The notes under the pieces: generated by a model
The model's database searches: none
Told to the model about the DNA's origin: nothing
Seen by the model: the letters and a program-made list of their open reading frames with translations, nothing else
Program-made: the position numbers and the translations under genes
DNA from: Sulfuricella denitrificans skB26
Lineage (GTDB): Bacteria; Pseudomonadota; Gammaproteobacteria; Burkholderiales; Sulfuricellaceae
DNA: 64,000 nt
Direction: 5' to 3'
Assembly (NCBI RefSeq): GCF_000297055.2
Contig: NC_022357.1
Location: 2,572,501-2,636,500 of the forward strand
Shown: positions 20,928 through 39,316 of the stretch, piece by piece
How the letters are laid out: each line of letters opens with the position of its first letter
How positions within the stretch are numbered: position 1 is the first letter of the stretch

Positions 20928-23168
20928 TCAGAACTTCACGGTTACGCCGGCGTAAATCGAACGGCCCATGCCTGGAACAGCGATTCCATAAGGTGCACCT
21001 CCTGTTGGGGGCATCGTTGTCCCTTGCCCCACATACGCCCCACCCAACGGATAATCGTAGAGTCTATCGAAGACATTCTCTATGCCCACATCAAACCGTG
21101 CCTTTTTCCATGCATAGCTGCTGCGCAGATTCAGCAAACTGTAGCCTGCAGTTTTAAGTTCGTTACGAATTTGCGACACGTCAGTCTTGGCATCCACCAA
21201 CTGGACTTCCGCAGTATTGATCCAGCTACCTAGATGCTGAGCAACCGCCAGCTTCGCGTTCAGCGGCATCATATTGTATAAATCGTCGCTCGTGCCGCTC
21301 GATGTCTTCCCTCTGACGTAATTCAACACGCCGGTCGCCGTGATGTTGCCGAAACCGGTATTTTTGGCCAGCGGGAAATAGCCGGAAACATCCAGGCCGT
21401 AGAGCCGAGCGTCCTGATTGACGTACTTGAGGAACACAAAACCAGTCGACGTGAGCGAGGTTGGCAAACGCTGAGCATTGATGTAATCCTGGACATAGGT
21501 GTAGTAGGGCGTGACTTTCAGCCCCCAATTCTGCTGATCAGTGTCATGCCAGTCAGCAGTGGCGCTGAGAGTATTGGCCACTTCCGGCTTCAGGTCCAAG
21601 TTGCCTACGTAGCCATTGCCATCGCCAACCATGTTGATCATGTTCATGGCCATGCCGCCGGTCGACCAGGTATAGCGCTCATAGAGGTTGGGCGAACGGG
21701 TTTTGCGGGCATAGCCAAACTCATAAGTCTTGCTACTATCCACCGTGTAACGAGCCAGCGCGGTCATGTCCCAGTTGTTGTCGGTGCGGCTGCGGTCGCG
21801 GGCATTGAAAGCGTTCGCATCCGTATTGTAGGTAGCGTTATACCCCTGCACGGTGCCCGTATCCATTTTCACCGTTTCGCTGCGCACGCCGAGTTGGCTC
21901 AGCCATTGCGGGTTCCATCGCGCTTCCCATTCGGCAAAGGCGGCGTAACGATCACGCTGGCCATCTTTGATGTCTAAGAAGGTATTCGGGGACATGCCGC
22001 CGTTCCCAGACGCGTCCCACCAATCATTGAAGCGATAGCGCTGGTATTCGCCGCCGACCCTGAGAAGATCACGAGCTGAAAGCACGATATCTGCCTTGAC
22101 CACGGCGCCGGTGTTTCTCCCTTCCGTGTCCATCGGCATACCGGGTGCAGGTATCGTCTGGGTTCCACTCTTGTACCAGAATGCCTTGTCCTCGAGGAAG
22201 TTCATCTTGTGCCGCGTATGTTCATTATATGCGCGCGCTTGCAAGGTGCCCCAGTCGTATTGGCCGGTATAGCGCAGATTAACATGTTCGCTGTCATTGG
22301 CGGTCATGTCCATGCGCTGATTCGGAAAGCCCTGATAGGGAATATCTTGCACGCCCAGCTTCAGTTCGACCAGGTGGTTCTCATTGCGGAGCGCAAATGC
22401 GATAGATTGATTCGTAGATTTATACATGGATGACCCGACCTCGTCCCCGGACAACCTTTTTGTCGAGGTATAAAGTGATTTCCCATCCGCAACAAAAGCC
22501 GGCCCTGCTGGCTTGAAATCACCACCGGCCTTGTAGTTACCGGATTCCACGGTTGACCCGCTATAAGTCATGCTCAATTTTTCGCTGGCGATGGTTGCCG
22601 AAATATTGCCGCCTGTGACATTGCCGTTGCTGCGATAAAAAGCACCGGCCTGCCCCTTGGTCAAGGTTCCCTGTCCGACCGCGGCAAATTCCGGTGCTGG
22701 AGAATTCACCTGGATGGCGCCGCCAATACTGTCACCGCCGACACTCACCGGTGCAATGCCGCCAAATACCTGGATGCTGCCCACATGGGATGGGTCGATA
22801 TAGGAAAGCGGCGGATTCATGTGGTTGCCGCAGGCGGAAATCAGATCCATGCCATCGACCTTGATGCGCAGGCGATCATCGGCCAGACCTTGAATCACCG
22901 GCAGGCTGGAAACGCCGCCGGCGCCGTAAAGGCTCACGCCGGGCACATCCCTGAGCAGGCTGGCGGTATCGCTGGTGGAAGACCGCATGGGGGCGAGATT
23001 TGCCGCATCCAAACTGGACGCGCCGAAAGCGGGCTGGGTGTCGATTTTCGAGGCGCTGACAACGACCTCTTCCAATTTCGTCGATTTCACCTCATCGGCG
23101 GCCAGCGCAAAATGATACGGCATGATGGCCGCCAGTGAGGCAGCAAGAATTCGAGGTTTGAACTTCAT
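20928..23168 (-). CDS. TonB-dependent receptor, OprC/NosA-like (copper)
   Basis: Outer-membrane active-transport barrel of 746 residues. Signal peptide to about residue 23 (ALA-ADE), plug domain from about 35 to 165 and 22-strand barrel ending YAGVTVKF with terminal phenylalanine. The plug has SACGNHMNPPLSYIDP with C113 and M117 (CxxxM), and the barrel has HKM at 320-322 (HxM); these match the copper-binding residues known in Pseudomonas OprC. A sigma-54 promoter is 50 bp upstream and a terminator follows, so it is a single-gene unit. Copper import is a strong inference; NosA-like supply of nitrous oxide reductase is possible but no nos gene is here. Confidence 0.92.
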   Translation of the reverse strand: MKFKPRILAASLAAIMPYHFALAADEVKSTKLEEVVVSASKIDTQPAFGASSLDAANLAPMRSSTSDTASLLRDVPGVSLYGAGGVSSLPVIQGLADDRLRIKVDGMDLISACGNHMNPPLSYIDPSHVGSIQVFGGIAPVSVGGDSIGGAIQVNSPAPEFAAVGQGTLTKGQAGAFYRSNGNVTGGNISATIASEKLSMTYSGSTVESGNYKAGGDFKPAGPAFVADGKSLYTSTKRLSGDEVGSSMYKSTNQSIAFALRNENHLVELKLGVQDIPYQGFPNQRMDMTANDSEHVNLRYTGQYDWGTLQARAYNEHTRHKMNFLEDKAFWYKSGTQTIPAPGMPMDTEGRNTGAVVKADIVLSARDLLRVGGEYQRYRFNDWWDASGNGGMSPNTFLDIKDGQRDRYAAFAEWEARWNPQWLSQLGVRSETVKMDTGTVQGYNATYNTDANAFNARDRSRTDNNWDMTALARYTVDSSKTYEFGYARKTRSPNLYERYTWSTGGMAMNMINMVGDGNGYVGNLDLKPEVANTLSATADWHDTDQQNWGLKVTPYYTYVQDYINAQRLPTSLTSTGFVFLKYVNQDARLYGLDVSGYFPLAKNTGFGNITATGVLNYVRGKTSSGTSDDLYNMMPLNAKLAVAQHLGSWINTAEVQLVDAKTDVSQIRNELKTAGYSLLNLRSSYAWKKARFDVGIENVFDRLYDYPLGGAYVGQGTTMPPTGGAPYGIAVPGMGRSIYAGVTVKF

Positions 23169-23218: not shown

Positions 23219-23235
23219 CGCAATTCACGTGCCAG
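23219..23235 (-). promoter_or_regulatory. Sigma-54 promoter of receptor 1
   Basis: Minus strand reads CTGGCACGTGAATTGCG, with GG and GC ten bases apart and an almost perfect match to TGGCACG-N4-TTGCW. Transcription would begin near 23208, giving a leader of about 40 nt. Confidence 0.85.
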
Positions 23236-23275
23236 GGAAAAATCTTTACGAATCAGTGGAAGCAGACCGTCCGTC

Positions 23276-23293
23276 CTGTGCTATTTCGCACAG
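23276..23293. promoter_or_regulatory. Dyad, candidate activator site upstream of receptor 1
   Basis: CTGTGCTATTTCGCACAG is a perfect 6+6 inverted repeat with a 6-nt spacer, about 70-85 bp upstream of the predicted sigma-54 start, where enhancer-binding activators bind. A near copy is at 30236-30252. Confidence 0.6.
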
Positions 23294-23347
23294 AACGTGG
23301 CAAATGACTCATATCGAGGAATGAATTTGGCAGAATACCCTGTTGGG

Positions 23348-23788
23348 TTACTGCTTGTGATTTTCTTCCGGAGCCGGCACCTTGCCGATAGGAGTGGTAA
23401 CAAAAGCCAGCTTGGTGATGCCGACCCGTTGCAGCATCGCCAGCACCTGGGCAACACGGCCATAGCGCACGCTTTCGTCGGCGTGCAGCTGCACGTTCGG
23501 GTCTGCATCCTGGGCAGCGATCTTTTTCAGCTCGGCCTCCAGCGTGTCGAAGTGGATCAGGCGCTGGTCGATGAATACACCGCCTTGGGCGTCGATCGCC
23601 ATCTGGATGGTTTTGGTCTGCTTCATCGGCGACACCGCTGCGGTCTTGGGCAGGTTGACCTTGACGGCCTGCATCAAGAGCGGCGCGGTGACGATAAACA
23701 CGATCAGCAACACCAGCATCACGTCTACCAGCGGCGTGACGTTGATCTCGCTCATCGCGGTCTGTTCGGAACGGCTGTGCAATCCCAT
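23348..23788 (-). CDS. exbD: Biopolymer transport protein ExbD
   Basis: Proton-channel subunit of the TonB motor. The 146-residue protein has a single membrane helix at about residues 16-38 (EINVTPLVDVMLVLLIVFIV, in part) with the essential aspartate in VDVMLV, and a periplasmic domain with LHADESVRYGRVAQVL. It is the last gene of the seven-gene leftward unit from receptor 2 and starts 4 bp after the exbB stop. Confidence 0.95.
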   Translation of the reverse strand: MGLHSRSEQTAMSEINVTPLVDVMLVLLIVFIVTAPLLMQAVKVNLPKTAAVSPMKQTKTIQMAIDAQGGVFIDQRLIHFDTLEAELKKIAAQDADPNVQLHADESVRYGRVAQVLAMLQRVGITKLAFVTTPIGKVPAPEENHKQ

Positions 23789-23792
23789 CGCT

Positions 23793-24449
23793 TTACTCCA
23801 CCCTGAAACCGGACTTCATCGCCAGGTGAAGGAAATCGGTAGTGAAATCCTCCATTTCAGCTACATACAAGCGGGTGCGGCGCAGACCGTAATTGTAGGC
23901 CAGCACAGCGGGGATGGCGGTGGCGATGCCGAGGGCGGTGGCGATCAGTGCCTCGCCGATTGGGCCGGCCACTACGTCCAGCCCGGCGGAGCCGCTTTTG
24001 CTGATGTCCTGCAAGGCATGCATGATGCCCCACACCGTGCCGAACAGACCGACGAAGGGCGCGGTGGAGCCGATGCTCGCCAGCACCATCAAGCCGCTAT
24101 CGAGCCTGTTCTGCTCCTTCTGCACCTGGCTGCGCAGGCAGCGCTCCAGGATGTCCTGCTGGTCACCGCTGTGCTGCAGATTCTGTTCGCCACCCTTGTG
24201 CATGTCGCGCAGTGCGGTAAAGCCACAATGGGCGAGGCGAGCTAAAGGCCCGGTAGCACTGGCGGTAATCCGCTCCGCCTCAAGCAAGCCTTTGGCATTC
24301 CAGAATGCCAGGCCGAAGCGCTTGTTTTCCTGCGACAAACGCCATTGCGCCCAACCCTTGACGACAATCAGGGTCCAGGTCACGACCGAAAACACGGCCA
24401 GAACCCACAGTGTGATGACGACGATATCAGACGAGGAAAAATGGGGCAT
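23793..24449 (-). CDS. exbB: Biopolymer transport protein ExbB
   Basis: Pentameric inner-membrane subunit of the TonB motor. The 218-residue protein has three membrane helices: about 10-30, 120-142 (GSTAPFVGLFGTVWGIMHA region) and 155-180 (GEALIATALGIATAIPAVLAY region). The ATG at 24447-24449 is preferred over one six codons upstream. It follows tonB by 14 bp. Confidence 0.95.
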   Translation of the reverse strand: MPHFSSSDIVVITLWVLAVFSVVTWTLIVVKGWAQWRLSQENKRFGLAFWNAKGLLEAERITASATGPLARLAHCGFTALRDMHKGGEQNLQHSGDQQDILERCLRSQVQKEQNRLDSGLMVLASIGSTAPFVGLFGTVWGIMHALQDISKSGSAGLDVVAGPIGEALIATALGIATAIPAVLAYNYGLRRTRLYVAEMEDFTTDFLHLAMKSGFRVE

Positions 24450-24463
24450 AGAATATCCTGTTT

Positions 24464-25132
24464 TCAATTATTTTCGAGTTTGAACGTAATCGGCACCTCG
24501 ACCCAGGCAACAACCGCCTGGCTGCCTCGTTTGGCGGGCATGAAGCGCCACTTCTTTACAGCTTCCAGCGCGGCATGATCGAGCATTTCATGACCGCTGG
24601 TTTTTTTCAGCTCGGCACGTTGACACTCGCCACCAGCCGAAATTTCGGCGCGCACCAACACCGTTCCCTCAATGCCGCGCCGCCTCGCCGCTAGCGGATA
24701 GGCTGGCGGCGGGTTGCTGAGATAGGCGGCATTATAGCGTGGCAACTCCAGCACCGGCTCGGGCGCAGGCGCCGCCGGGGGGGATGGAGCCGGCGGAGAT
24801 GGCTGCGCTATCGCCACCGGCGCCTGCTGTAGCGCGTGTTCCACTACCGGCTGCATCACCGGAACCGGTGTCGGTGCCGAAACCGCTTTCTTCACAACCG
24901 GTTTCGGCTGCCGCTCCACTTTGGGTGGCGGGGGCTGCAGCGGTACCACTTTCGGTTCCGTGGGGGCAGGCGGGGCGATCAGCGAAACCTGCACCACCGG
25001 CAGGGGCCGAGGCGGAATGAGCTCGCTCTTGAAATGAGTGTATCCCCACCATACCGTCGCATGCAGGAGAACGACCAGACCGAACGAGGGTAGCCAACGC
25101 GGCCACTCCCGGTCGGATTCGACTTGCATCAT
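24464..25132 (-). CDS. tonB: Energy transducer TonB
   Basis: Transmits ExbBD energy to receptors. The protein of about 222 residues has a membrane anchor at about 13-32, a long proline/lysine-rich spacer (residues 45-130) and the C-terminal domain with PAYPLAARRRGIEGTVLVRAEI and a final VPITFKLENN. Two tandem ATG codons at 25127-25132 are possible starts. It belongs to the receptor 2 unit, which thus carries its own motor. Confidence 0.93.
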   Translation of the reverse strand: MMQVESDREWPRWLPSFGLVVLLHATVWWGYTHFKSELIPPRPLPVVQVSLIAPPAPTEPKVVPLQPPPPKVERQPKPVVKKAVSAPTPVPVMQPVVEHALQQAPVAIAQPSPPAPSPPAAPAPEPVLELPRYNAAYLSNPPPAYPLAARRRGIEGTVLVRAEISAGGECQRAELKKTSGHEMLDHAALEAVKKWRFMPAKRGSQAVVAWVEVPITFKLENN

Positions 25133-25163
25133 TGCGTATTCCAAATACGATCCAAAATGGCGC

Positions 25164-25832
25164 CTAGAATAACATAATCAAACGGCGCAACCCGATCGCG
25201 ATCAATACAACTGCCGCTCCCCAGCGCAGCCATTTGCCCAGCCACTGCCGCCCCTCTCGCAGATTGCGTCCGAACAAGCTCAGCAGGGGCACAATCACCA
25301 GCAGCGGGGTGAGTGCCGCGCCCAAACCGAAAGACAGGCCGTAGCCCACGCCGGATAGTGTGCCGCCGGACAGCGCGCACACCGCCAGGAGAGAGGCCAG
25401 CGGCGCGCACGGCGTCAGGCTCAAAGAAAATCCGAGCAGGAAAGGCGGGGTACCCGCCCCCCGTTGCGCCGCGCCGCACGCCGTCTTGCGCCGTGACGGC
25501 AACAGCAGCCAGACGCCGGCACCCAGGCTGGCCATGCCGATAAAGGCATTGCCCACGCCACTGCTCAGGGCGTGGGTAAGCCACACCCCGAGCGCCCCGG
25601 CCAGACCGCCGAGCAGGCTATAAGCCGTTACCCGACCGAGCACGAAGATACCGGTATCGAGAAGCGCCTCGCGGTTGCTGCCACCGCGCCCCAGCACCCA
25701 GGTGCCCATGAACGGCAGACAGGTGACGGTGCAGGCGGTCAGCCCCATGGAAACGCCCAGCAGCCAGACCGAGAACAGGCTGATAGTCTCCGGCAGAGGC
25801 GCTGCGCCGCCAGGCATGATGACATCAAGCAC
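25164..25832 (-). CDS. SafE/UreH-type membrane protein (CcdA-like)
   Basis: Six-helix membrane protein of the TauE/SafE (UreH_2) group. The 222-residue protein has paired cysteine-proline motifs, ACTVTCLPFMG near residue 32 and LTPCAP near 140, resembling thiol or metal transporters of the CcdA/DsbD fold. A GTG start at 25830-25832 is chosen because AGGAGG lies 6 nt upstream; the next ATG is five codons later without a site. It overlaps the polyferredoxin stop by 8 bp. Relatives lie beside ccoGHIS copper genes, which supports metal handling. Confidence 0.85.
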   Translation of the reverse strand: MLDVIMPGGAAPLPETISLFSVWLLGVSMGLTACTVTCLPFMGTWVLGRGGSNREALLDTGIFVLGRVTAYSLLGGLAGALGVWLTHALSSGVGNAFIGMASLGAGVWLLLPSRRKTACGAAQRGAGTPPFLLGFSLSLTPCAPLASLLAVCALSGGTLSGVGYGLSFGLGAALTPLLVIVPLLSLFGRNLREGRQWLGKWLRWGAAVVLIAIGLRRLIMLF

Positions 25833-26877
25833 GCTCAGCCTCCTGACCGGATTTGCGCGGCGCGGCAACTATCTTGACCGTGCCGTCCGGCATTTCGCCC
25901 TTCATGCGCAGCTTGTAATACTCACGGCTGGAACCGAACAGCGTCAGAGGCCCCCATTTCATCTGGATCACACCGTCATCCGGGCAGAACTCGACGCAAC
26001 GGCCACACAGAGTGCAATCCTCGTGGAATGCCTTGGTGCCATGCTCGCGAGCGATCTCGTGGATGTCCATCGGGCAAGCCTTGGCGCAGATGCCGCATTT
26101 GTCGCATTTGTCGTGCTGTTTTTTCACCAGCCGCATCGGCGACAAACGCTGGAAAGTGGCGTTGAACGACAGCATCGGGCAGATACGGCAGAATGGCTGA
26201 CGCACCGCCAACGCCGCCACCAGCATGAAACCGAACAAAGTGTTGGCTATGGCGCCGAAAGCAAAATCCAGGGTGCTGCCGGTGCGGATCGCCATCTGTT
26301 CGGTATTGGCGGTCAGCAAAGTGGTGGCGAGGCGCGACGGGCAAACCTGGCAGTATGCATCGCCGGTGGCATGGGGAGTCACGCCCAGCCCAGCCAGCAG
26401 GGGCAGCGCCAGCACCAACACAATCAGCATCAGCCACTTCACCGGCCTCACCTTGCTTACGCTGCCGTTCTCGAAGCGGCGCAGGGGCAGGTTGAGCCGC
26501 CGCCCAAGCTTGTTGATCAGCTCCTGGATCGTGCCGAGCGGACAAATCCAGCCGCAAAATGCCTTGTTGAGCACCACGAAGAAGGTGAAGAAAGTGAGCA
26601 GAGTGAACAACAGCGGCAACACCATCTGAAAGGTGAACTGCTGGGCCTTGATCAGCGCTTCGCCGACACGGTGGTGCAATTGGTGCTGGGTAGGGATCAG
26701 CACGCAATAAGAGCCGTTCTGCTGGTCGAAGGCACAGGATAGCGCGGGGAGCGCATTGGAAATTTTTTCCGCCATATAGAAGCCGACCACATTGGAACCG
26801 TAGACGGTCAACAGCAGCATGAAAATCTGGATGAACAACCGGAAACGGCCTAGTGTGGGAAAAATCGATTTAAACAT
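25825..26877 (-). CDS. Membrane polyferredoxin (NapH/CcoG-like)
   Basis: Inner-membrane electron-transfer protein of 350 residues. Several membrane helices occur in the first 250 residues with cysteine motifs CGWICPLG, YCQVCPS and FCRICPM, then two 4Fe-4S motifs, CDKCGICAKACP and CTLCGRCVEFCP. NapH, NosR and CcoG share this pattern; CcoG relatives reduce cupric copper. Here it probably passes electrons to the periplasm for reduction of the imported metal, an inference from context. Start taken as the second of two ATGs, 4 nt after GGAGG; it overlaps the upstream stop by one base. Confidence 0.88.
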   Translation of the reverse strand: MFKSIFPTLGRFRLFIQIFMLLLTVYGSNVVGFYMAEKISNALPALSCAFDQQNGSYCVLIPTQHQLHHRVGEALIKAQQFTFQMVLPLLFTLLTFFTFFVVLNKAFCGWICPLGTIQELINKLGRRLNLPLRRFENGSVSKVRPVKWLMLIVLVLALPLLAGLGVTPHATGDAYCQVCPSRLATTLLTANTEQMAIRTGSTLDFAFGAIANTLFGFMLVAALAVRQPFCRICPMLSFNATFQRLSPMRLVKKQHDKCDKCGICAKACPMDIHEIAREHGTKAFHEDCTLCGRCVEFCPDDGVIQMKWGPLTLFGSSREYYKLRMKGEMPDGTVKIVAAPRKSGQEAERA

Positions 26878-27773
26878 CATGCCTCCTTCGCGCAATTTTT
26901 GTTAGCGGCTTTCTTGCGGCGCAGCAGCGGCGCGGCGAGCAGCATGCCGAACACGCCAAAACCGGCGCCCGCCATCAAGCTCTTGCCGGTGATGGCGTCG
27001 GGCGAATAGGCATAGTTGAAAGCGGTCAAATAATGCTTGCCACCTTCGTCATGCTCCACGGCCAGCACGAATTTGCCTTTACGCGGACCCATGTGCTGAT
27101 CATGCGTCTTGGCGGGGTCGACCGGCTTGAAATCCAACGGGAACAGCACCGTCACCCACCCTTGCGCGTCGCTGGTGAAGGCCGTTTTGGTACCGAACTC
27201 GGTCTCCATCTTCAGCTCATTGTTAGCCAGCGGTTGGCCATTGAAGCGCAGCAGGAACTGCCATTTATCGCTTTCACGGTAGGAACCGTGCTCGCGCGGC
27301 AGGGGTTGGGGAACAATCTCCAGCTCGTATTTCTGCTTCAGCAGCAATGCGGTCGGCGCCGCGCCAGGATTACCGAAAAAGTAGGCAGTGGAAGCTACCG
27401 TCACTTTCCCTTCCGTCTCCTCGCGCGCACTCACCCAGTGGTAGTTGCCGATCTTGGGCATCACCGCCTCGATCCGGGTTCCCTCTGGAGTGACCGGAAA
27501 CTGGCGGCGCAGACGGTCATCCGGCCCCTCGGCGGCGAACACCTCCAGCTCGGCGGACTGAAGGTTCTTTACCGCCAGCTTCGCCACCGCACGGTCGCCA
27601 CCTCTGCCCATCATCGGCGTGATCAGCGGGTACTTGGTCCACTCCCGCGTCTGCCATTTGCCTTGGCCGGCAGCGGCAACCGCCGGGTTTCCGGCTGGCC
27701 TTCCATCCGCCACGGCAGAGGCGCAGGTCAGCATCAGGGTTGCCGACAGGATCAGGTTGATTGGTCTTTGCAT
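26877..27773 (-). CDS. DUF4198-like periplasmic protein with C-terminal anchor
   Basis: The 298-residue protein has a signal peptide (MQRPINLILSATLMLTCASAVAD region), a beta-rich middle with carboxypeptidase-regulatory-like features (FNGQPLANNELKMETEFG, TSDAQGWVTVLFPLDFKP) and a C-terminal membrane helix at about 265-283 followed by RRKKAANK. DUF4198 proteins such as NikM accompany metal uptake. Two histidines (HDQHMGP) could bind metal. It lies 24 bp after receptor 2 and is coupled to the polyferredoxin. Family call is moderate. Confidence 0.72.
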   Translation of the reverse strand: MQRPINLILSATLMLTCASAVADGRPAGNPAVAAAGQGKWQTREWTKYPLITPMMGRGGDRAVAKLAVKNLQSAELEVFAAEGPDDRLRRQFPVTPEGTRIEAVMPKIGNYHWVSAREETEGKVTVASTAYFFGNPGAAPTALLLKQKYELEIVPQPLPREHGSYRESDKWQFLLRFNGQPLANNELKMETEFGTKTAFTSDAQGWVTVLFPLDFKPVDPAKTHDQHMGPRKGKFVLAVEHDEGGKHYLTAFNYAYSPDAITGKSLMAGAGFGVFGMLLAAPLLRRKKAANKNCAKEA

Positions 27774-27797
27774 GAATGCTCTCCTGTTCCTGGTTGC

Positions 27798-30086
27798 TTA
27801 AAAGGTTGCCGATACGCCGGCATACCAGGTGCGCGGCCGGCCTACCACGATGGAAAGGTCGTTGGCGTTGTATATGTTGTCGTATGCCCCGGTAATGTAA
27901 TTGGCCTGGTCGTTGGTGCCGCGTGCAGTGACCCAGTACTTACGGTCAAACAGGTTGTCTACTCGTGCGAACAAGGACCACTTGGCACTCAGGAACCCTT
28001 TTTCCCTGATATCGTAGTTGGCCAGCAAGTTGAACAGCGTGCGGCCAGGCAGTTTTTCCTGGTTGATCTCATCCGCCCAGGCCCAGGACTTGGTATCCAT
28101 TTCCAGGCCGAGGTGGAACTGGCTGGAGGGTTGCCAGTGACCAGTCAGATTGACCTGATTAGAAGGCACCCGCGGCACCGTCTTGCCGGTATTATTGAAG
28201 TGCACCATGGTAGGATTGGTTGCATAAATACTGCCGAGCACCTGGTAGAAGTTATCGTATTTGGTGAAGTAGGCATCGATGTAGCTGTACGCCAGATCGA
28301 AGGCATATTCACGCTTCCGGTCGCTCTTCAGAGCCAGCTCGAAGCCACGGTTGCGTACACCGCCGATGTTATCGTACATCTCCTGAATCGTTGGGCTCGA
28401 TCCGGCATACTGGCCGGTGGTGGCCATGATGTAGTCCTTGCGGTCGATCTGGAATATCGAAGCATCCGCATCCATTTCAATGCCGAACCATTCGGTCTTG
28501 GTACGCAGGCCAAACTCAAGGTTGAGCGATTCCTCAGGTCTCAGATTTTCGTTGTTTGCCGTTTTGCCGCTTGACGGGGAAATCGAGCCACGATAAAGCT
28601 GGTCGACGGTCGGCGTGCGGAAGCCGGTGGAAAGATTGCCATAGACGTCCATGTTGCTTTTAAGCGCATAATTCGCCCCAGCCCGCCAAGAACTGTTCTG
28701 AAACGATTTAGAACGGTTAATCGCGACATAGCCGTTGTCTTTACCCGGCTTGGCGGAATAATCCAGTCCCAGTTCATCGTAACGCCCGTTGAAAGTCAGT
28801 GTCCAGTCGGTGGCCGGCCTGAACTTGACCTCACCATAAGCACCGTTGACCGACTCGTCGGTACTGTCATCCGTCATGATGGTGCCAGCCGTCACTGAAG
28901 CGCCTGGCGCGCAGGCCGCACCCTGCTTGCGGCTGCAATAATCCACCCCGGCCTTGTTCAACTGCTGATATTCATTGCGGCGCAAATCCAGCCCGGCCAG
29001 CCAGCCGACATTGCCGGTCGAGGAACGCCACTCGCCCTTGGCGCCGCGTTGTACCTGTTGCCAGTTGTTGAGAGTAGTGTAGGCATCGTAGTAACCTGGG
29101 TCACTAGGCAACACGCTGGTTCCGTTGGTATAGAGCGACTGGGGTGCCGACAGGAAATTCGTGCGGTCTCGGTATTCGTAGCCCATCAGGAGAATATTGC
29201 TCCTGGGATCGTAATTATTGGAATAGGTCAGATTGAGCTTCTGCAGATCGACAGCATACTTGCGGGTATAGTCACGCCCGAGCACACCTTGTGGGTCCAA
29301 TTCGGCCTGAGTCACCCCTTTTACCGAACCGTGCTTATCCTTGCTACGGTCTGATTTTTCGAAGCCGAAAGTCAGATCACTGGTATCGGATAGATAAAGA
29401 TTGAAATTGCCATTGAGATAATCCGTCTTGTATGACGACTGGAAATAATAGTCATCGCCGTAGCGGTGCGAGGCCTGGATGTGACCGTTGCCTTTCTCAC
29501 CAGAGAATCCCACTCGCGCCATCTGTTTCTCGTAACCCCACGAACCGGCTTCCATGCTTACAGTTGCACCGGCATACTTGGCGCCACGCTTGGTGGTAAT
29601 GATCACCGCGCCGGAAAGCGCGTCTTCGCCGAACAGGTAGGAGGCACCCCCCTTGATTACCTTGATCGATTCAATGTTGTCGAGGTCAATATTGACCTTG
29701 CCGGTGCGTTCGAACACCGGCACACCATCGATCACGATCGCCACACCCGGCTTCTCGCCCATATAGCGCTGGTTTTCAATGCCTCGTAGCTTGATCTTGA
29801 TCTCGTCGCCACTGGACAAGTCAGCCGTCACCCCAGGGATGGAGCGCAACACCTGGATGACGTTCTCGATGTGAGCATCATCTACCTCCTTACCGCTGAT
29901 CACGCTGATACTCGACGGCTCGTCGCGCTTGAATTCAAATCGGTCGTCGATAGTAGTGGAAGTCACCACCACCTCCTTCATGGTTTGAGCGGTATCCTGG
30001 CCAACTTCGGCGCTCCAGGCACTACCCGTCATACCGGCGCAAATTCCCACGATTAACCACTGCAATAAATAATTCCTTTGTTTCAT
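27798..30086 (-). CDS. TonB-dependent receptor 2
   Basis: Outer-membrane receptor of 762 residues. Signal peptide to about residue 26 (WSA-EVG), TonB box MKEVVVTST near 37, plug with IPGVTADLSSGDEIKIKLRG and a 22-strand barrel ending YAGVSATF. No CxxxM/HxM pair like receptor 1 was seen, so the ligand is unknown; it may take a chelated form. The ATG at 30084-30086 has GGGGAG nine nt upstream. First gene of a seven-gene unit with DUF4198, polyferredoxin, SafE, tonB, exbB and exbD, under a sigma-54 promoter. Confidence 0.93.
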   Translation of the reverse strand: MKQRNYLLQWLIVGICAGMTGSAWSAEVGQDTAQTMKEVVVTSTTIDDRFEFKRDEPSSISVISGKEVDDAHIENVIQVLRSIPGVTADLSSGDEIKIKLRGIENQRYMGEKPGVAIVIDGVPVFERTGKVNIDLDNIESIKVIKGGASYLFGEDALSGAVIITTKRGAKYAGATVSMEAGSWGYEKQMARVGFSGEKGNGHIQASHRYGDDYYFQSSYKTDYLNGNFNLYLSDTSDLTFGFEKSDRSKDKHGSVKGVTQAELDPQGVLGRDYTRKYAVDLQKLNLTYSNNYDPRSNILLMGYEYRDRTNFLSAPQSLYTNGTSVLPSDPGYYDAYTTLNNWQQVQRGAKGEWRSSTGNVGWLAGLDLRRNEYQQLNKAGVDYCSRKQGAACAPGASVTAGTIMTDDSTDESVNGAYGEVKFRPATDWTLTFNGRYDELGLDYSAKPGKDNGYVAINRSKSFQNSSWRAGANYALKSNMDVYGNLSTGFRTPTVDQLYRGSISPSSGKTANNENLRPEESLNLEFGLRTKTEWFGIEMDADASIFQIDRKDYIMATTGQYAGSSPTIQEMYDNIGGVRNRGFELALKSDRKREYAFDLAYSYIDAYFTKYDNFYQVLGSIYATNPTMVHFNNTGKTVPRVPSNQVNLTGHWQPSSQFHLGLEMDTKSWAWADEINQEKLPGRTLFNLLANYDIREKGFLSAKWSLFARVDNLFDRKYWVTARGTNDQANYITGAYDNIYNANDLSIVVGRPRTWYAGVSATF

Positions 30087-30175
30087 CTTCAACTACTCCC
30101 CTTTGACAATGTGTAAATTTGCGACACCCAGATATCGGGATGTTCTTATCTTCAATTTAGACAGGGGATTTACTC

Positions 30176-30192
30176 AGCAACCTTCATGCCAT
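30176..30192 (-). promoter_or_regulatory. Sigma-54 promoter of the receptor 2 operon
   Basis: Minus strand reads ATGGCATGAAGGTTGCT, one mismatch from TGGCACG-N4-TTGCW with correct GG-N10-GC spacing. Transcription would start near 30165, 80 nt before the receptor ATG. Confidence 0.82.
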
Positions 30193-30235
30193 CAACGCAT
30201 GCTTTGAAAAACAACAGGTTGATGCAGATCAATGC

Positions 30236-30252
30236 GGTGCCATTTGGCGCAG
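30236..30252. promoter_or_regulatory. Dyad upstream of receptor 2, copy of the 23276 site
   Basis: GGTGCCATTTGGCGCAG matches 13 of 17 bases of the dyad core at 23277-23293. It starts 60 bp upstream of the promoter element, against 58 bp at receptor 1, supporting a common activator site. Confidence 0.55.
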
Positions 30253-30301
30253 TTGCGTGAGTTGACACAACCGGCCAAATTGCCGGATGAAGTTGAAGTG
30301 C

Positions 30302-30351: not shown

Positions 30352-30837
30352 TTAGCGACGAGTGTAGTATTTCTTCAGCCATTGCTCTAACTGCAAGCCA
30401 TCGAGCTTGCCGCTGAAAGCCAAGGTCTTGTGGGAAGGATCGTAAAGATAAGTGCGTGGCAGTTCGCCATGCCATTTGGGGTCGATCTCGAAGCGCAGGC
30501 GTTCCGCAAAAGGGTCGGCAAAAACCCAGGCTTGCGCCCCTCCGAGCCCGGATTGCCGCAGCGTAGTACCGATTTCTTCGCCCTCTTCCGGCGTATCGGT
30601 AGCAACCAGTACCAGATCAAGATCGGGATGCTTTTTTACCAGGCTGGACAGCAAGGCGAGATCTTCCCGGCAATGGGTGCAGGTCAGCGACCACATACCC
30701 AGGATGAATGGCTTGCCCTGCCGGGCTGCGGTAATTTCCTTCATGCTACCGGCGACAAAGGGCTTGAGATCTTGTGCCGCCGCGGGAAGGGTCAGCATCG
30801 ACAGCACAGCCATTGCCAAACATAGGTGTCGCCGCAT
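30352..30837 (-). CDS. TlpA-like periplasmic thioredoxin-fold protein
   Basis: Probable thiol oxidoreductase of 161 residues. Signal peptide MRRHLCLAMAVLSMLTLPAA, then a thioredoxin fold with the redox motif CTHC in MWSLTCTHCRED and the cis-proline region LPRTYLYDP. The ATG at 30835-30837 has GGAG upstream and overlaps the previous stop by one base. As in Sco/TlpA copper chaperone systems it could keep cysteines of the neighbouring CECC protein reduced. Target unproven. Confidence 0.88.
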   Translation of the reverse strand: MRRHLCLAMAVLSMLTLPAAAQDLKPFVAGSMKEITAARQGKPFILGMWSLTCTHCREDLALLSSLVKKHPDLDLVLVATDTPEEGEEIGTTLRQSGLGGAQAWVFADPFAERLRFEIDPKWHGELPRTYLYDPSHKTLAFSGKLDGLQLEQWLKKYYTRR

Positions 30838-32066
30838 CACAGCTCCATCCCGATCAGTCGGAAGCCTTCCTTGGCGGTGTTCCACGACAAATAGGGCTGA
30901 GTGCCGTCGGCTATCAGCAGGGGGTGATCCGAAGCGCCGGCGGTCGCGGCAATCTGGCGCGGCAACGACCACGACTTGCCGCCATCGCTGGAGGACATTC
31001 CTCTGATGACCGAGTTCTGTCCATCGAATTCTTTCCAGACTACATGCACCGACTTGCCGAAGCTCAGCACATATGGATGGCCGGCCTGCGCATCGTAATT
31101 GCCGAAATTCAGCGGCACGGAAAAAGTCTTGCCCTGGTCAGTGGAGTAGGCATAAAACAGCCCATGCCTCTCAGGCGCATTGTCGAACCAGGCGAAATGA
31201 TAGACACCATCGGATGCGATAGACAGCGCGCCACCGTGATGCGGGCAAGCATCCACTTCCCAGCGGTCGTGGCTGACGCGGATCGGCGAAGACTTGCCAT
31301 CCAGCCGCAGCATGGCATGGTCGCGCTCGTTCTTGCCGTACACATGGCGCCAGAAAACCACCGGCGTACCATCGGCATCCAGCGCCATTGCTACGCGGCA
31401 GCACTCGCAGGAATGGTCGGCGGCCTTGGCATTGGTATGAAAGTTTGCGCCGCCATCGTCGGACACCGCGTAATAAACGCCTACCCCGGTATATTTCTCG
31501 CCTTTCCTGATGGCAGCGCTCAAATCGCGTTTATCCAGCCAGGCGAGAAAAACCTGCCCCCGGTCGTTCACTTCCAGCGCCTCGAACCGATGGCTGATTA
31601 TTTCCCGGTTGTCGTTGACGGTGAGCGGCGCGTAGAACGTCTTGCCGCCATCCAGCGAACGGCTGAAGCGGATATCGCCGGTCATCGGCTTTTCCAGCGC
31701 CTGAGTATAGGAAATGTAGATGACCCCTTTTCTGACGAGTATCTTGGGGCGATTTTCGCCATCCGCGGCGATGTTCTCCGCCTCGGCATTGACCTTGACT
31801 GGCTGGCCCCACGATTTTCCGCTATCGCCGGAAAAATCCACCGAAACATACCCGTCCCGCACCGATGCCCGCCACAGCCCCCCCTTCTCGTCGAACGCGA
31901 CGGAAACCGCGAGCGACGGCTTGGCCAGCATCGCTTTCCACATTTTTTCCCTGTCCTGAAGAGAAGATGGCGCACCATGCTCTGCGTGGGCGGTCTGGTC
32001 TGCGGCCTGAACCCACCCCGCCAGGTTCATCACGGCAACCAGCAGGCCAAATGCGATTTTGTTCAT
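30837..32066 (-). CDS. Asp-box (BNR/sialidase-like) propeller with CECC motif
   Basis: Secreted beta-propeller of about 409 residues. Signal peptide MNKIAFGLLVAVMNLAGWVQA, then at least five Asp-boxes (SGDSGKSW, SLDGGKTF, SDDGGANF, STDQGKTF, SSDGGKSW). A cysteine cluster SCECCRVAM lies near residue 195 and CPHHGG near 253, which look like a metal site. The catalytic arginine triad of true sialidases was not recognised. It lies in one unit with receptor 3 and the TlpA-like protein, so a copper-binding or maturation role is more likely than glycan cleavage. An ATG three codons upstream is an alternative start. Confidence 0.82.
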   Translation of the reverse strand: MNKIAFGLLVAVMNLAGWVQAADQTAHAEHGAPSSLQDREKMWKAMLAKPSLAVSVAFDEKGGLWRASVRDGYVSVDFSGDSGKSWGQPVKVNAEAENIAADGENRPKILVRKGVIYISYTQALEKPMTGDIRFSRSLDGGKTFYAPLTVNDNREIISHRFEALEVNDRGQVFLAWLDKRDLSAAIRKGEKYTGVGVYYAVSDDGGANFHTNAKAADHSCECCRVAMALDADGTPVVFWRHVYGKNERDHAMLRLDGKSSPIRVSHDRWEVDACPHHGGALSIASDGVYHFAWFDNAPERHGLFYAYSTDQGKTFSVPLNFGNYDAQAGHPYVLSFGKSVHVVWKEFDGQNSVIRGMSSSDGGKSWSLPRQIAATAGASDHPLLIADGTQPYLSWNTAKEGFRLIGMEL

Positions 32067-32079
32067 TCCCGCCATCCCA

Positions 32080-34383
32080 TCAGTAATCAAATTTCAAATT
32101 TGCAAACACGGTGCGCTGCGGATAGGGGTGGGCGACATAGGCCTTGTAGTTGCCGATGTTGTCTACGCCAAGAGATGTGCTCCACTGTTTCGCGACCTTG
32201 TAAACAACTTTGGCATCAGCCACCAAAAACGAGCTGGCCCCTCCATAGGTGCTGGGATTGATGTCGCTGTTATCCAGGAGGTTGTACTGACGGCCGCTGT
32301 AACGGGCCGCCAAACTGTAGGAGAGTCGATCGGACGCATGGTAGATACCGGCCAGCGTTGCCCGCCAGTCCGGGATGCGCGGCTGAACCATGCCGACGTA
32401 GGCCGGGTGCTGGGTGTCCTGCAGAATCTTCGAATTGGTATAAGTGACGCTGCCGGAAAGATCAAAGCCGCGTATCCACAAATCGCTAAGCTGCAGTGCG
32501 GTTTCGATGCCGTAGGTGCGAATCTTGTCGACATTCTGGATGCTTGTGATGTTAGGCGACACTGTCGTATCGGTTTGTGAAACGAGCGCATCCTGCTTGT
32601 CTTCCTGGAACAGCGAAACACGCCACAGTCCATTTTGCAGCGCCCTCTCTGCCGTGAGTTCCCCGGAGACGACCTGCTCCGGTTTCAGGTTTGGATCGTT
32701 CGTCTTTATACCTCCGGGCCCGGTGAAAGTCTGGAACATCTCGCTGACGGTCGGGAAGCGAACCGCCTTGCCAAGTGATCCCCGCAAAGCCCAGTTTGTC
32801 GATGCCTGGAAGGAGAGTGAAACCTTGGGCGAAAAGGCCGTGTCTGTCCGGTCAGCATAGTTCAGTTGCTTGTAGGGGTTGGGGTTGGCAGAATTGTAGT
32901 TACTCCCGTCAAATGCCTTCCAGTATTCCTGGCGACCGCCTACGACCAACTGCCAGTCGGGCGCAAAGCGCCAGGCATCCTGAAGGTACAGCCCCTGGGT
33001 CTCCGTCCTTCCCTTCGAATTCGAGCTCAAAGCCCCCGCGGCACCGGTAAGCCAATCCGTAGCGACAGTATAGGTATTGGAGTTTAATTCATAGCGATCA
33101 ATGTGATAACCAAAGCTTACCTGGTGCTTGCTCTTCAGGTCACCATCGGGGCGCCACTCGCCGCGCAGGTCGAGAGTCTGCCAGCCGGTGCCGTCCATCA
33201 AGGTAACTTGTCCGCCCTGGCGGATAGCCCCAGTGCCCAAATCCACCCCATTGTTTGCAGTGTAGTTTGCCGTGCGGGAAATATCCTTGTTGTAGTCGTA
33301 AGCGCTGACGGCCGCTTCCCAATCCCATTCGCCTCGTGTATTGGATTTTACCGAAAACCCCTGCATCCAGTGCTCGCTTTCAGCGTGGCCCGGACTCAAG
33401 CTGGCCGTCTTGTAATTAGTTCCGTCGATTTTGACGTTCCCGTTGTAAACCGTGTTCCCGAGTGCGTCCTTCAGGTAGCTGTCGACACTGGTATCCGAGT
33501 TGTTCTGCCAGACCCCCAAAGTGTAAGTGGCACGCACAGTCGGAGAGAAATCATAAGCCAGCTTGAACTTGCCGTTGTCCTGCACGGTATGGTCGATGCT
33601 GTAACCACCAGTAATCACCCGCACCGCACCCGTCGGATCGGTGTCTCTATACGCGCCGGTGACGGTCATAGTGCCGCCCCCCCCTGCGGTGGCGGTACCG
33701 AAACTCATCGGGTGTCCATGCGTATCGATATGATCCCCGCTAATCCAGATAGACCAGTCACCAATTTTATTGCCAATGGATGCGCTGGCATGCGCGCCAT
33801 CATAATTTTCGTTTGTACCGTAGAGGTTGAAACTTTCCCGGAAAACCTGCAGATTCGCGTGGGCTTCGAATCTCTCCGGCATCCGGGTCGTCATCTGAAC
33901 CACGCCGCCCATCGAGTTGCCGGGATAAAGAACAGAGAACGGGCCGTAGATGATATCGACCCGTTCGATTTCCTCCGGCGATACCATGCCCCAGCGCGGC
34001 GGGTAGCTGTAGCTGTTACCAAGAAAATTCGAGAGCAGCAGGTTGTCCGCATAGACGATGGATTGCGCGCTGGAAATGGTGCCGGTCGTCCGCGTCGAAA
34101 CGATGCCGTTGCGGTCGCCGATGTAGCGCTCGCGAACAACGATGCTCGGCAGGTATTTGATCACCTCGGCAGAGGTCACCGCATTGATACTTTCTGCGAT
34201 CTGTTTTGCCGTCACACCCTCGGTCGTTGCCGGCAAATTGGCCGGAACAGCCGGTTTATCGCCCTTGATGACCATCTCTTGCAATTGCGTATCGGATTTC
34301 TGATCCACATCGACACACCACCCCGAACCCGCCATGCTGGCACACACCCCAACCACCAACCCCCGCAACGCCTTGTCGTTCAT
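32080..34383 (-). CDS. TonB-dependent receptor 3
   Basis: Outer-membrane receptor of 767 residues. Signal peptide in MNDKALRGLVVGVCASMAGS, TonB-box-like LQEMVIKGD, plug with IKYLPSIVVRERYIGDRNGI and VYADNLLLSNFLGNSYSYPP, barrel ending TVFANLKFDY (tyrosine rather than phenylalanine last). The ATG at 34381-34383 has GGAG upstream; codons further 5' are unconserved. First gene of a unit with the Asp-box propeller and the TlpA-like protein. Ligand unknown. Confidence 0.92.
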   Translation of the reverse strand: MNDKALRGLVVGVCASMAGSGWCVDVDQKSDTQLQEMVIKGDKPAVPANLPATTEGVTAKQIAESINAVTSAEVIKYLPSIVVRERYIGDRNGIVSTRTTGTISSAQSIVYADNLLLSNFLGNSYSYPPRWGMVSPEEIERVDIIYGPFSVLYPGNSMGGVVQMTTRMPERFEAHANLQVFRESFNLYGTNENYDGAHASASIGNKIGDWSIWISGDHIDTHGHPMSFGTATAGGGGTMTVTGAYRDTDPTGAVRVITGGYSIDHTVQDNGKFKLAYDFSPTVRATYTLGVWQNNSDTSVDSYLKDALGNTVYNGNVKIDGTNYKTASLSPGHAESEHWMQGFSVKSNTRGEWDWEAAVSAYDYNKDISRTANYTANNGVDLGTGAIRQGGQVTLMDGTGWQTLDLRGEWRPDGDLKSKHQVSFGYHIDRYELNSNTYTVATDWLTGAAGALSSNSKGRTETQGLYLQDAWRFAPDWQLVVGGRQEYWKAFDGSNYNSANPNPYKQLNYADRTDTAFSPKVSLSFQASTNWALRGSLGKAVRFPTVSEMFQTFTGPGGIKTNDPNLKPEQVVSGELTAERALQNGLWRVSLFQEDKQDALVSQTDTTVSPNITSIQNVDKIRTYGIETALQLSDLWIRGFDLSGSVTYTNSKILQDTQHPAYVGMVQPRIPDWRATLAGIYHASDRLSYSLAARYSGRQYNLLDNSDINPSTYGGASSFLVADAKVVYKVAKQWSTSLGVDNIGNYKAYVAHPYPQRTVFANLKFDY

Positions 34384-34469: not shown

Positions 34470-34486
34470 GACAATTTTCATGCCAA
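34470..34486 (-). promoter_or_regulatory. Probable sigma-54 promoter of receptor 3
   Basis: Minus strand reads TTGGCATGAAAATTGTC: good -24 element, correct spacing, but GT instead of GC at -12. It is about 87 bp upstream of the receptor ATG. A half-match of the shared dyad (TCGCACAG) lies at 34505-34512. Confidence 0.6.
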
Positions 34487-34593
34487 TGATAAGTCATTGT
34501 TATCTCGCACAGCACGCAACCAAGTCGAGATCGAGACATTTCTTTTACAGCTTAGGCAAGTGCGACCAGATCTTCCCGACAGCGCGTACAAGC

Positions 34594-36219: not shown

Positions 36220-36446
36220 AGCTTTGCATTATGCGTATATTTCATACTGATTTCAAATTGCAGTGATCCGCAAAAATAATGATGGATTAAATCCTAAAGG
36301 GCAGATCTGTCTCACCAACCTTTGTTGATGGTTAAAGCTACTGGCTGGCAGAATATTTAGGGTAGCGGGACTTCCGACTCTCTAAAATCAATTGACTCAC
36401 AAATCGGATATTGACGTATGAAATCAGTATTCTTATACTATGCCTC

Positions 36447-37418
36447 ATGGATGCTTTCTCTCTTATCGGCCACTCACCCATCTTCCGCCAATTGTTGAAT
36501 ACGGCACAGCTGGTTGCCGCCACCCGAGCGACCGTGTTGATCAGCGGAGAATCGGGCAGTGGCAAGGAAAATCTGGCGCGCTTCCTGCACACTCACAGCC
36601 CCTTGGCAAGCCGGCCCTTCATTGCGGTCAACTGCGCCAACCTTCCGGAAAACCTGGTGGAGTCGGAGCTATTCGGCCACCGCCGCGGCGCTTTCAGCAA
36701 CGCCGTTGTCGACCGTGATGGCTTGGTGCGGGCAGCCCACAACGGCACATTATTCCTCGACGAGATCGGCGAACTGCCGCTAACGGCGCAGGCCAAAATG
36801 TTGCGCTTCCTGGAAAACGGCGAAATCCTGCCGCTGGGTTACGATCAGCCGATCAAGGCCAACGTCCGCGTGATTGCCGCAACCAACTGCGACCTGGAAA
36901 AAATGGTAAAGATCGGCCGCTTCCGCGCCGACCTGTTTTACCGTTTGCAGGTGGTGCCGATGGAGGTGCCGCCGCTGCGCGAACGCGCGGGCGACATTAG
37001 CTTGCTGATAGAGCACTTTGTTGAAATGGCGGCACAGCAGCACAGTCTCAGTGCAGTTTCCTTCGGCCCGGAAGCCATGAAAGTGCTCAAGGCTTACACT
37101 TGGCCCGGCAACGTGCGCGAGTTGAAAAACCTGTGCGAGCGCCTGACGATATTGTGCAATTTCCAACGTGGTTCCCTCGGCGTGGAAAACCTGCCTCTCA
37201 ACATCCGCGGTGGTCAGCGCGTTGCCACATCCAGCCCTGCGGCTGCCCCGCTCAATCTGGAGCAGACCGAGCGCGATCTCATCCTGCAAGCCCTGGAACA
37301 GACCAGAGGCAACCGCACCCGGGCTGCCAAGCTGCTGGGCATCAGTCGCTACACCCTGCTTTACCGGATAAAGAAATACTTTGGCGCCGAAGAATCCGGC
37401 CTTGTTGGCGAAGCGTAA
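36447..37418 (+). CDS. Sigma-54 dependent activator, PspF-like, variant GAFTGA
   Basis: AAA+ enhancer-binding protein of 323 residues without an N-terminal sensor domain. Walker A GESGSGKE at about 34-41, Walker B GTLFLDEIGEL, arginine-finger region FRADLFYRLQV and a C-terminal Fis-type helix-turn-helix NRTRAAKLLGISRYTLLYRI. The sigma-54 contact loop reads RRGAFSNA instead of GAFTGA. The ATG at 36447 has no clear ribosome site. Its place beside three transcription units with sigma-54 promoters makes it their likely activator; how it senses the signal is unclear, perhaps through a partner as PspF does with PspA. Confidence 0.9.
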   Translation: MDAFSLIGHSPIFRQLLNTAQLVAATRATVLISGESGSGKENLARFLHTHSPLASRPFIAVNCANLPENLVESELFGHRRGAFSNAVVDRDGLVRAAHNGTLFLDEIGELPLTAQAKMLRFLENGEILPLGYDQPIKANVRVIAATNCDLEKMVKIGRFRADLFYRLQVVPMEVPPLRERAGDISLLIEHFVEMAAQQHSLSAVSFGPEAMKVLKAYTWPGNVRELKNLCERLTILCNFQRGSLGVENLPLNIRGGQRVATSSPAAAPLNLEQTERDLILQALEQTRGNRTRAAKLLGISRYTLLYRIKKYFGAEESGLVGEA

Positions 37419-37477: not shown

Positions 37478-37903
37478 CTATTTCGACTTGATTACCGTCA
37501 GCAGGTCACGCTTGTGTTCTTCCTCCTGGATCAGGATATCCTCGAGCACCCGGCGCAAACCATACTCCTTGAGCGCCTCGGCCTGGGCAATCCGTTCTTT
37601 GTAGCGATTGATGGCATTGTCCTCGCCTTTTAGATCCTGCTTCAACATCGCCAAGCTGTCGCTGTCGGTTTCGCGCTTTTCCACGTCCACCGTGGGCACC
37701 CCACCAAGAAAATCAATCTGGTCGGACAGCATGACGGCATGCATCATCTCCTCCTGGGAGTGAATGATCAATTCCTTCTGGATCGACTCATACTGTGCAC
37801 CGGTGATCGCGGAAGCATGCTGAACGTACTGTACCGCCGCGGCGTATTCCCATTCCAGATCTTTGTTGAGTTCCTCGAGCAGTTTCTTCTTCGTAATTTT
37901 CAT
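37478..37903 (-). CDS. Ferritin-like di-iron protein
   Basis: Four-helix protein of 141 residues with metal-ligand patterns LEWEYAAAVQYVQHA, HSQEEMMHAVML (ExxH), GEDNAINRYKERI and LIQEEEHKRDLL (ExxH), as in bacterioferritin-like and DUF2202-type proteins. It could store iron or consume peroxide; length is shorter than true bacterioferritin (about 158) and no haem methionine is evident. AGGAGG precedes the ATG. Single gene with its own terminator. Confidence 0.87.
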   Translation of the reverse strand: MKITKKKLLEELNKDLEWEYAAAVQYVQHASAITGAQYESIQKELIIHSQEEMMHAVMLSDQIDFLGGVPTVDVEKRETDSDSLAMLKQDLKGEDNAINRYKERIAQAEALKEYGLRRVLEDILIQEEEHKRDLLTVIKSK

Positions 37904-37944
37904 GTCCGACCCTCCTTTAGAATGAATCTAAATTCAATATAGCC

Positions 37945-38550
37945 TTAAAAACCCTTGCGTGCCACCAAGTCCACCAGCGCCGATAAGCCGCAGTGGCCAT
38001 CCCCTTCGCAAATTTCGTCGTCATGTTCGGCGAGATGAAGAATTTCCATGGAAGAAAATTCCTCGCGCAGGGTTTCTGCCGTGTACAGATTTTCTACGCT
38101 GGAAGGTCCGCCGGTCTGGTATTCCAGTTGTTTTGGCCGGTAGCCCTGCAGGATCAGCAAACCGCCCGGCTTGAGAGCGCGTAGCATCAGTTCATTCAGG
38201 ATGCGTCGCTGTTCAGGGCCAACAAACTGGGTGAAAATCGCCACAACAGCATCAAAGCGGTTTTCACCCCAGTTCCAGGTAAACAGGTCACTGATTTCGT
38301 GGCGCACTGTCACCCCGTATTGCCCCGCCAGTCGTTGCGCCTTTTCTACTGCCACCGGGGAAAAATCCACCGCCGTCACATCCAGTCCCTGCCGGGCAAG
38401 CCAGACGCCGTTACGCCCCTCGCCATCGGCCACGGCCAGAACGGTTTGCCCTGGCTTGAACCGATGAAGCTGCGAGACCAGAAAAGCGTTGGGGTCGCTA
38501 CCGTAGAAAAATGTGTCCCCGCTATAACGCTGGTTCCATATCTCTTTCAA
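37945..38550 (-). CDS. Class I SAM-dependent methyltransferase
   Basis: The 201-residue protein has the nucleotide-binding motif VLAVADGEGRNGVWLARQG, acidic VTAVDFSP and the LKPGGLLILQGY strand. The closest look is to TehB/thiopurine-type small-molecule methyltransferases (start IWNQRYSGDTFFYG). Substrate unknown. It overlaps the dsbC stop by 4 bp and is therefore coupled to it. Confidence 0.88.
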   Translation of the reverse strand: MKEIWNQRYSGDTFFYGSDPNAFLVSQLHRFKPGQTVLAVADGEGRNGVWLARQGLDVTAVDFSPVAVEKAQRLAGQYGVTVRHEISDLFTWNWGENRFDAVVAIFTQFVGPEQRRILNELMLRALKPGGLLILQGYRPKQLEYQTGGPSSVENLYTAETLREEFSSMEILHLAEHDDEICEGDGHCGLSALVDLVARKGF

Positions 38551-39287: not shown

Positions 39288-39316
39288 TACAATTTCCTTC
39301 AAGGTAAAAAATTTAA

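Follow-up and report, generated by a model that had tools for sequence, protein, structure and literature searches.

Several described systems border on the locus reported here. Enhancer-binding proteins of the PspF type lack a regulatory domain and use tandem enhancer sites, and NifA, another activator of sigma-54 promoters, has the site TGT-N10-ACA. Copper efflux in bacteria is well understood, whereas the control of copper import is poorly understood. In the outer-membrane receptor OprC, the cysteine and methionine of the CxxxM motif have been shown to bind copper (PMC8610252). As to the control of import in Gram-negative bacteria, oprC has been reported to be controlled by CueR (PMC7558416), and crtA of the Bordetella cruR-crtA pair is controlled after transcription by the CruR upstream open reading frame (PMC12914433); here and below, these reports are cited as far as their accessible text goes. 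The present work concerns a 64,000-nucleotide stretch of the Sulfuricella denitrificans skB26 genome (NC_022357.1, positions 2,572,501 to 2,636,500; hereafter the window), in which paired dyads lie upstream of sigma-54 promoters of TonB-dependent receptor genes. Judged from sequence comparison, these dyads are probably the upstream activating sequences (UAS) of a small sigma-54 copper-acquisition regulon run by a short activator encoded at position 36447, the 36447 protein, which carries an unusual GAFS[N/H]A loop.

An earlier note on this DNA had proposed that one dyad, shared by two sigma-54 promoters, forms the enhancer for a single activator. The two sequences are present, CTGTGCTATTTCGCACAG at 23276-23293 and GGTGCCATTTGGCGCAG at 30236-30252; a side-by-side comparison by eye reproduced the reported agreement at 13 of 17 bases, and the dyads lie upstream of their sigma-54 cores, starting 58 and 60 bp from the first core base, distances as near to equal as had been claimed. 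Each site, however, consists of two tandem 16-bp dyads of about YGYGCSANNTSGCRCR, of which only the near one (D1) and not the far one (D2) had been seen. The features concerned are the following, with dyads scored out of 18 and cores out of 11.

20928-23168, minus strand: T1, TonB-dependent receptor related to OprC, with CxxxM copper ligands
23220-23234, minus strand: sigma-54 core of T1, TGGCACG-TGAA-TTGC (TGGCACGTGAATTGC, read from 23234 to 23220), 11/11
23277-23292, minus strand: near dyad of T1 (D1), TGTGCGAAATAGCACA, 42 bp upstream of the core, score 17/18
23296-23311, minus strand: far dyad of T1 (D2), TGAGTCATTTGCCACG, 19 bp beyond D1, score 16/18
27798-30092, minus strand: T2, TonB-dependent receptor, first gene of an operon reaching down to exbD
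30177-30191, minus strand: sigma-54 core of T2, TGGCATG-AAGG-TTGC (TGGCATGAAGGTTGC, read from 30191 to 30177), 11/11
30236-30251, minus strand: near dyad of T2 (D1), TGCGCCAAATGGCACC, 44 bp upstream of the core, score 17/18
30254-30269, minus strand: far dyad of T2 (D2), TGTGTCAACTCACGCA, 18 bp beyond D1, score 18/18

Sigma-54 cores were recognized as TGGCAYR-N4-TTGC, with ten bases from GG to GC, in front of a gene. Such cores precede T1, T2 and a third receptor gene, T3, and are kept in relatives. A consensus scan of the window returned only two sites matching at 11 of 11 positions, the strong T1 and T2 cores, both on the minus strand; the T3 core at 34485-34471 matches at 10 of 11. The distance from core to start codon is about 66 bp for T1, 99 bp for T2 and 100 bp for T3, all of them TonB-dependent receptor genes. 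Within the 130 bp before each promoter, the best dyad score was equalled in 0.1% (T1) and 0.3% (T2) of 1000 shuffles. The single 16-bp dyad is not enriched in the window, with 24 places at up to two mismatches against 42 expected from shuffles; the claim therefore depends on spacing and conservation. What stands above chance is the combination of dyad, promoter and spacing, together with its conservation.

Between D1 and the first T of TGGCAC (the -24 box) there are 41-44 bp, and D2 lies 18 or 19 bp beyond D1. With that T taken as -26, the pair spans about -69 to -103, a usual location for a sigma-54 enhancer, so that repeated dyads occupy a conserved position upstream of the polymerase site, as in a UAS. 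Thirty-five promoters were scored over 130 bp, of which 29, from the genus and from a sister genus that has the activator, were counted; the six set aside are T3 of the window's own genome (G000) and of G010 and four promoters from family f35. D2 scores at least 15/18 at 25 of the 29 and at none of them at control offsets of 24-44 bp. About ten of these promoters were first found by a composite pattern, which fixes the spacing of D1 and not that of D2, and two more by a wider pattern. The motif TGTGC-N6-GCACA given in the earlier note held in its outer part and was incomplete otherwise, since it extends inwards to about YGYGCSA-NN-TSGCRCR and is doubled. Upstream of orthologous receptors, where the note had asked for the motif to be sought, dyads of this kind recur at the same distance from the sigma-54 cores. 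The elements also precede genes that are not homologous to each other, namely receptors of several kinds, an SCO1 operon and a histidine kinase. A site for IHF between dyads and promoter was not adopted as a general part of the element; its consensus reaches 8 or 9 of 9 in T2-, T3- and some other spacers and does not exceed chance in most spacers of the T1, OprC and SCO types.

The composite pattern, D1 plus promoter at fixed spacing, was followed through 61 genomes of the order. It occurs in all 12 genomes of the genus and in both of the sister genus with the activator, in none of eight genomes of the family's other genus, which is without the activator, and in 4 of 39 genomes of other families; a reversed control pattern matches 5 of the 61. 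In a set of 399 genomes of the order, 58 match, comprising the seven genus members sampled and 51 of 392 others. One match was examined in each of 34 of these 51 genomes, and every one falls within an open frame of 150 codons or more and is without D2. Within the two genera, D2 scores at least 15 at 20 of 26 composite matches, and two of the six without it (L156, L174) resemble chance matches in coding sequence. The 16-bp motif alone was rejected as a genome-wide marker, since, with one mismatch allowed, 3.2 Mb contain 63 places per strand, against 27 for the reversed control. The tandem alone (scores 15/15) was likewise not specific, with 60 strand-matches across unrelated loci totalling 1.25 Mb and, in the window, an additional one at 41241. 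Specificity comes only from tandem and promoter spacing together.

The candidate for the protein that acts at these sites is encoded near the receptors:

36411-36439, plus strand: sigma-70-type promoter of the activator gene, TTGACG-17-TATACT, 7 bp before the ATG
36447-37418, plus strand: candidate activator, short sigma-54 enhancer-binding protein (PF00158, PF25601, PF02954)

The 36447 protein combines a sigma-54 interaction AAA+ domain with Walker motifs, an AAA+ lid and a Fis-type helix-turn-helix, the make-up of an enhancer-binding protein, and is without a regulatory domain. Among the 61 genomes, orthologues of 70-97% identity were found in 11 besides the window's own: eight of the same genus, two of the sister genus and G055 of another family (the G009 orthologue is partial); other matches, among those listed, are at most 49% identical. 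Within the two genera the orthologue is present in 11 of 14 genomes, mostly beside receptors. Nine of the 399 genomes carry it, and a scan of the genome collection with the activator alignment gave only relatives of at most 48% identity. The helix expected to read the DNA, RYTLLYR, is conserved in all 13 orthologues that reach that far.

The loop of the activator at residues 81-86 (window region 36690-36710) reads GAFSNA in 11 of 14 orthologues and GAFSHA in the other three, in place of GAFTGA. Among 70 relatives, 67 had a readable loop (28 further loci had no usable frame), and of these 45 have GAFTGA and none GAFSNA. Because the targets have near-perfect -24/-12 cores, GAFS[N/H]A is taken as a working variant, and the 36447 protein would then act like an enhancer-binding protein with a variant loop. 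Two surveys select functional sigma-54 activators by the presence of GAFTGA (PMC12316311, PMC3162934), and such surveys could therefore miss this protein.

The sigma-70-type promoter stands 6-7 bp before the ATG in all nine genus members examined (the window's genome, G001, G003, G005 and G007-G011). The activator mRNA therefore probably begins at the start codon or right beside it and is probably leaderless. Since the gene has a conserved sigma-70-type promoter of its own, synthesis of the activator is probably steady and control would act on the protein. Cysteine C148 is shared by 13 of 14 orthologues, the exception being G178 with glycine, and all 67 relatives that have a residue at that position lack it; this pattern allows, but does not show, direct sensing of copper. 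A more specific form of the proposal is that this is a copper-starvation regulon whose sensorless activator reads copper directly, for example through the AAA+ cysteines C148, C230 and C237, with Cu(I) blocking the ring and the GAFS[N/H]A loop tuned to the switch. We regard this form as rather unlikely.

The genes that follow T2, and the third receptor with its promoter, complete the set at this locus:

23348-27773, minus strand: rest of the T2 operon (Pfam and NCBIfam labels), encoding a 298-residue protein, a NapH-like 4Fe-4S protein, a DsbD-like protein, TonB, ExbB and ExbD
32080-34383, minus strand: T3, TonB-dependent receptor
34471-34485, minus strand: sigma-54 core of T3, TGGCATG-AAAA-TTGT, 10/11, with a half-like site only and no dyad at the expected place

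The T2 genes are treated as an operon because they share a strand and the gaps are short; the same gene order is also found in G099 of family f35. The composite search located a fourth site elsewhere in the window's genome, at chromosome positions 1947763-1947834. It precedes genes for a 157-residue protein, SCO1/SenC (PF02630) and a PCu(A)C copper chaperone (PF04314). The element of this SCO operon is kept in G004, G006, G010 and G011, and a variant stands directly before SCO1 in G003 and G008. The SCO core (L176 5821-5847, chromosome near 1947830) ends about 10 bp before the ATG of the 157-residue protein, as it does in four relatives; the mRNA would therefore be leaderless or the start codon lies further in.

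Several of these genes point to copper. The only PDB sequence matches of T1 are OprC entries, and the CxxxM motif is kept, aCgnhMnpp of T1 aligning with aCpnrMdap of OprC. After exbD, an OprC-type receptor occupies the place of T1 in G001 and G004; G003 and G007 have there a receptor with the same 36-37% partial match to T1, called OprC-type on that ground alone. The cut-off of the TonB-copper receptor model TIGR01778 is passed by the G001 receptor (818 bits) and by the OprC-type receptor of G013 (788 bits), and the same element precedes both. Copper acquisition is the simplest common theme of the target genes. Apart from these targets, the composite in G002 (L184 1431-1553) precedes a RegB-like histidine kinase gene followed by a response-regulator gene, a possible link to redox control in that genome.

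The third promoter fits the arrangement less well. The half-copy TCGCACAG to which the earlier note drew attention does occur at 34505-34512, but it was not borne out as part of an enhancer. The best T3 dyad in the 130-bp scan scores 14/18, a value reached by 51% of shuffles, and is separated from the -24 box by 10 bp, not by 41-44; T3 of the close relative G010 likewise has no dyad beyond chance (14/18, about 51% of shuffles). With its best dyad at chance level, the T3 promoter was rejected as a regulon member in the window's genome, where membership of T3 is uncertain. In G001, G003 and G007, unlike in the window, T3 is preceded by tandem dyads.

Genomes without the activator offer natural controls. 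G012 belongs to a genus without sites and has no activator; its T2 is 88% identical, and upstream of that gene neither a sigma-54 core nor tandem dyads were seen. A simple pattern search likewise found no sigma-54-like core upstream of the SCO1 orthologues in five genomes of the same genus. Just upstream of the G012 T2 orthologue (L268) there is a long perfect palindrome around TGTGGCATTTTGCCACA, perhaps the site of another regulator or a terminator.

Taken as a mechanism, the arrangement suggests that the 36447 protein, whose own sigma-70 promoter would supply it steadily, would bind the two adjacent dyads as dimers, assemble there into an AAA+ ring, contact the waiting sigma-54 polymerase and open the promoter. 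In the window it would drive receptor T1 and the operon of T2, the 298-residue protein, the ferredoxin, the DsbD-like protein, TonB, ExbB and ExbD. Elsewhere on the chromosome it would drive the SCO1-PCu(A)C operon, which would deliver the imported copper to cuproenzymes. The sequences themselves show the sites, how they are paired and spaced, how far they are conserved and which genes follow them; binding of the dyads by the 36447 protein, sigma-54 dependence of transcription and copper shortage as the signal are what we infer from these data. Good support for an enhancer used by a single activator, which is probably the 36447 protein, comes from the strict spacing, the tandem dyads, their conservation before non-homologous genes and their co-occurrence with the activator gene.

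Several observations weigh against a copper regulon under this activator. T1 itself falls below the TIGR01778 cut-off (97 of 472 bits) and is a relative and not a member of that family, the T3 of the window has a sigma-54 core without a dyad, and the activator loop departs from GAFTGA. Family f35 has the activator, yet its four dyads (scores 16-18) sit at 52-74 bp and the composite is found in none of three genomes. Conversely, G002, G004 and G006 (79, 87 and 90% complete) have sites and no detected activator. In G004 the receptor that adjoins the activator in other genomes starts 65 bp from the contig end, so that the activator gene would lie beyond the contig; this accounts for G004 and not for G002 or G006. 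Finally, the best scores of T2 and T3 are with models of siderophore and haem receptors, below cut-off. These scores, the element before the RegB-like redox kinase in G002 and the NapH-like ferredoxin, a general type of electron carrier, would also suit a different need served by the same enhancer and activator, be it iron or haem or, more generally, denitrification or low oxygen, with copper just one cargo. The specifically labelled genes, however, all indicate copper (SCO1, PCu(A)C, the OprC-type receptors and the CxxxM of T1), and we consider a need other than copper unlikely.

The three genomes with sites and no detected 36447 orthologue also bear on the identity of the binding protein, as NifA, NtrC or another of about ten paralogues could occupy the dyads instead. 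G004 and G006 do have NifA, and in their outer bases the best dyads match the NifA site. The near dyads of T2 and of the SCO operon do not fit it, however, and the genus without sites has many paralogues. NifA was rejected as the binder in the window's genome, since this complete genome has no match over the family cut-off, and the same holds for G002, G008 and G011, all of which have sites. Moreover, the composite is present in all 12 genus members and NifA in 8 of 12, so that NifA does not explain the composite. Binding by an activator other than the 36447 protein is therefore improbable. Perfect short palindromes are typical of operators too, and a metal repressor or modulator distinct from the activator might act on these promoters through the dyads; but their position, about -69 to -103, is outside the polymerase site, they are doubled, and they occur only with sigma-54 cores at a fixed distance, which makes operators very improbable. 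The lack of enrichment of the single dyad would be expected of chance palindromes, and a transcription terminator after exbD might be considered as well. Pairing and spacing are nevertheless kept before unrelated genes, a terminator scan gave nothing at either dyad, and such an origin is scarcely credible.

Two groups of neighbouring genes deserve mention. At 30837-32090 lies the gene of a secreted BNR-repeat protein with HSCECC and CPHHGG motifs, which stands beside receptors in many genomes and is possibly metal-binding. Genes for a ferritin-like protein, a methyltransferase and a DsbC-like protein occupy 37478-39302, the latter two adjoining the activator even in family f35.

The copper-acquisition regulon proposed here supplies a candidate activator, a defined tandem site and a predicted set of targets (receptors, TonB-ExbBD, ferredoxin, DsbD-like protein and SCO1-PCuAC), so that the control of copper import can be put to a direct test. 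For work on sigma-54 activation, it would further provide a natural example of an activator with a GAFS[N/H]A loop.

Among activators, the 36447 protein is most readily set beside PspF-type proteins, with which it shares the bare AAA+ and Fis helix-turn-helix build, an alignable AAA+ domain and a likely constitutive supply. It differs from PspF in targets, in site and in having GAFSNA and not GAFTGA; it falls below the NCBIfam PspF cut-off (258 of 444 bits), and no pspA-like partner was seen among the neighbours scanned. NifA has a related AAA+ domain, and perfect dyads such as those of T1 fit its site; however, the 36447 protein has no GAF domain, the inner dyad bases are constrained too, and NifA is absent from the window's genome. 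Among copper systems, the OprC/NosA receptors of Pseudomonas are approached by T1, which matches OprC, and by the true TIGR01778 receptors that stand under the same element in other genomes; sigma-54 control of OprC/NosA receptors was not found in the accessible text of the literature searched. The accessible account of cruR-crtA likewise describes a copper TonB receptor, sometimes with TonB-ExbBD, PCuAC and ScoI genes, but with a PepSY partner gene in Bordetella where ferredoxin and DsbD-like genes stand here (PMC12914433). The thiocyanate dehydrogenase (TcDH) cluster of Thioalkalivibrio resembles the present locus in belonging to a sulfur oxidizer and in having a sigma-54 regulator beside putative copper-uptake genes. 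It differs in its histidine kinase and GAFTGA regulator and in its copCD and ABC transporter genes, and neither TonB nor a binding site was found in the accessible part of its description (PMC5744179). A sigma-54 copper-import regulon, a sigma-54-controlled copper receptor or a loop of the GAFS[N/H]A type was not found in the literature searched, whose coverage leaves out most subscription papers. The classical enhancer arrangement is known, and what is new is the site, the unusual activator and the unexpected set of targets.

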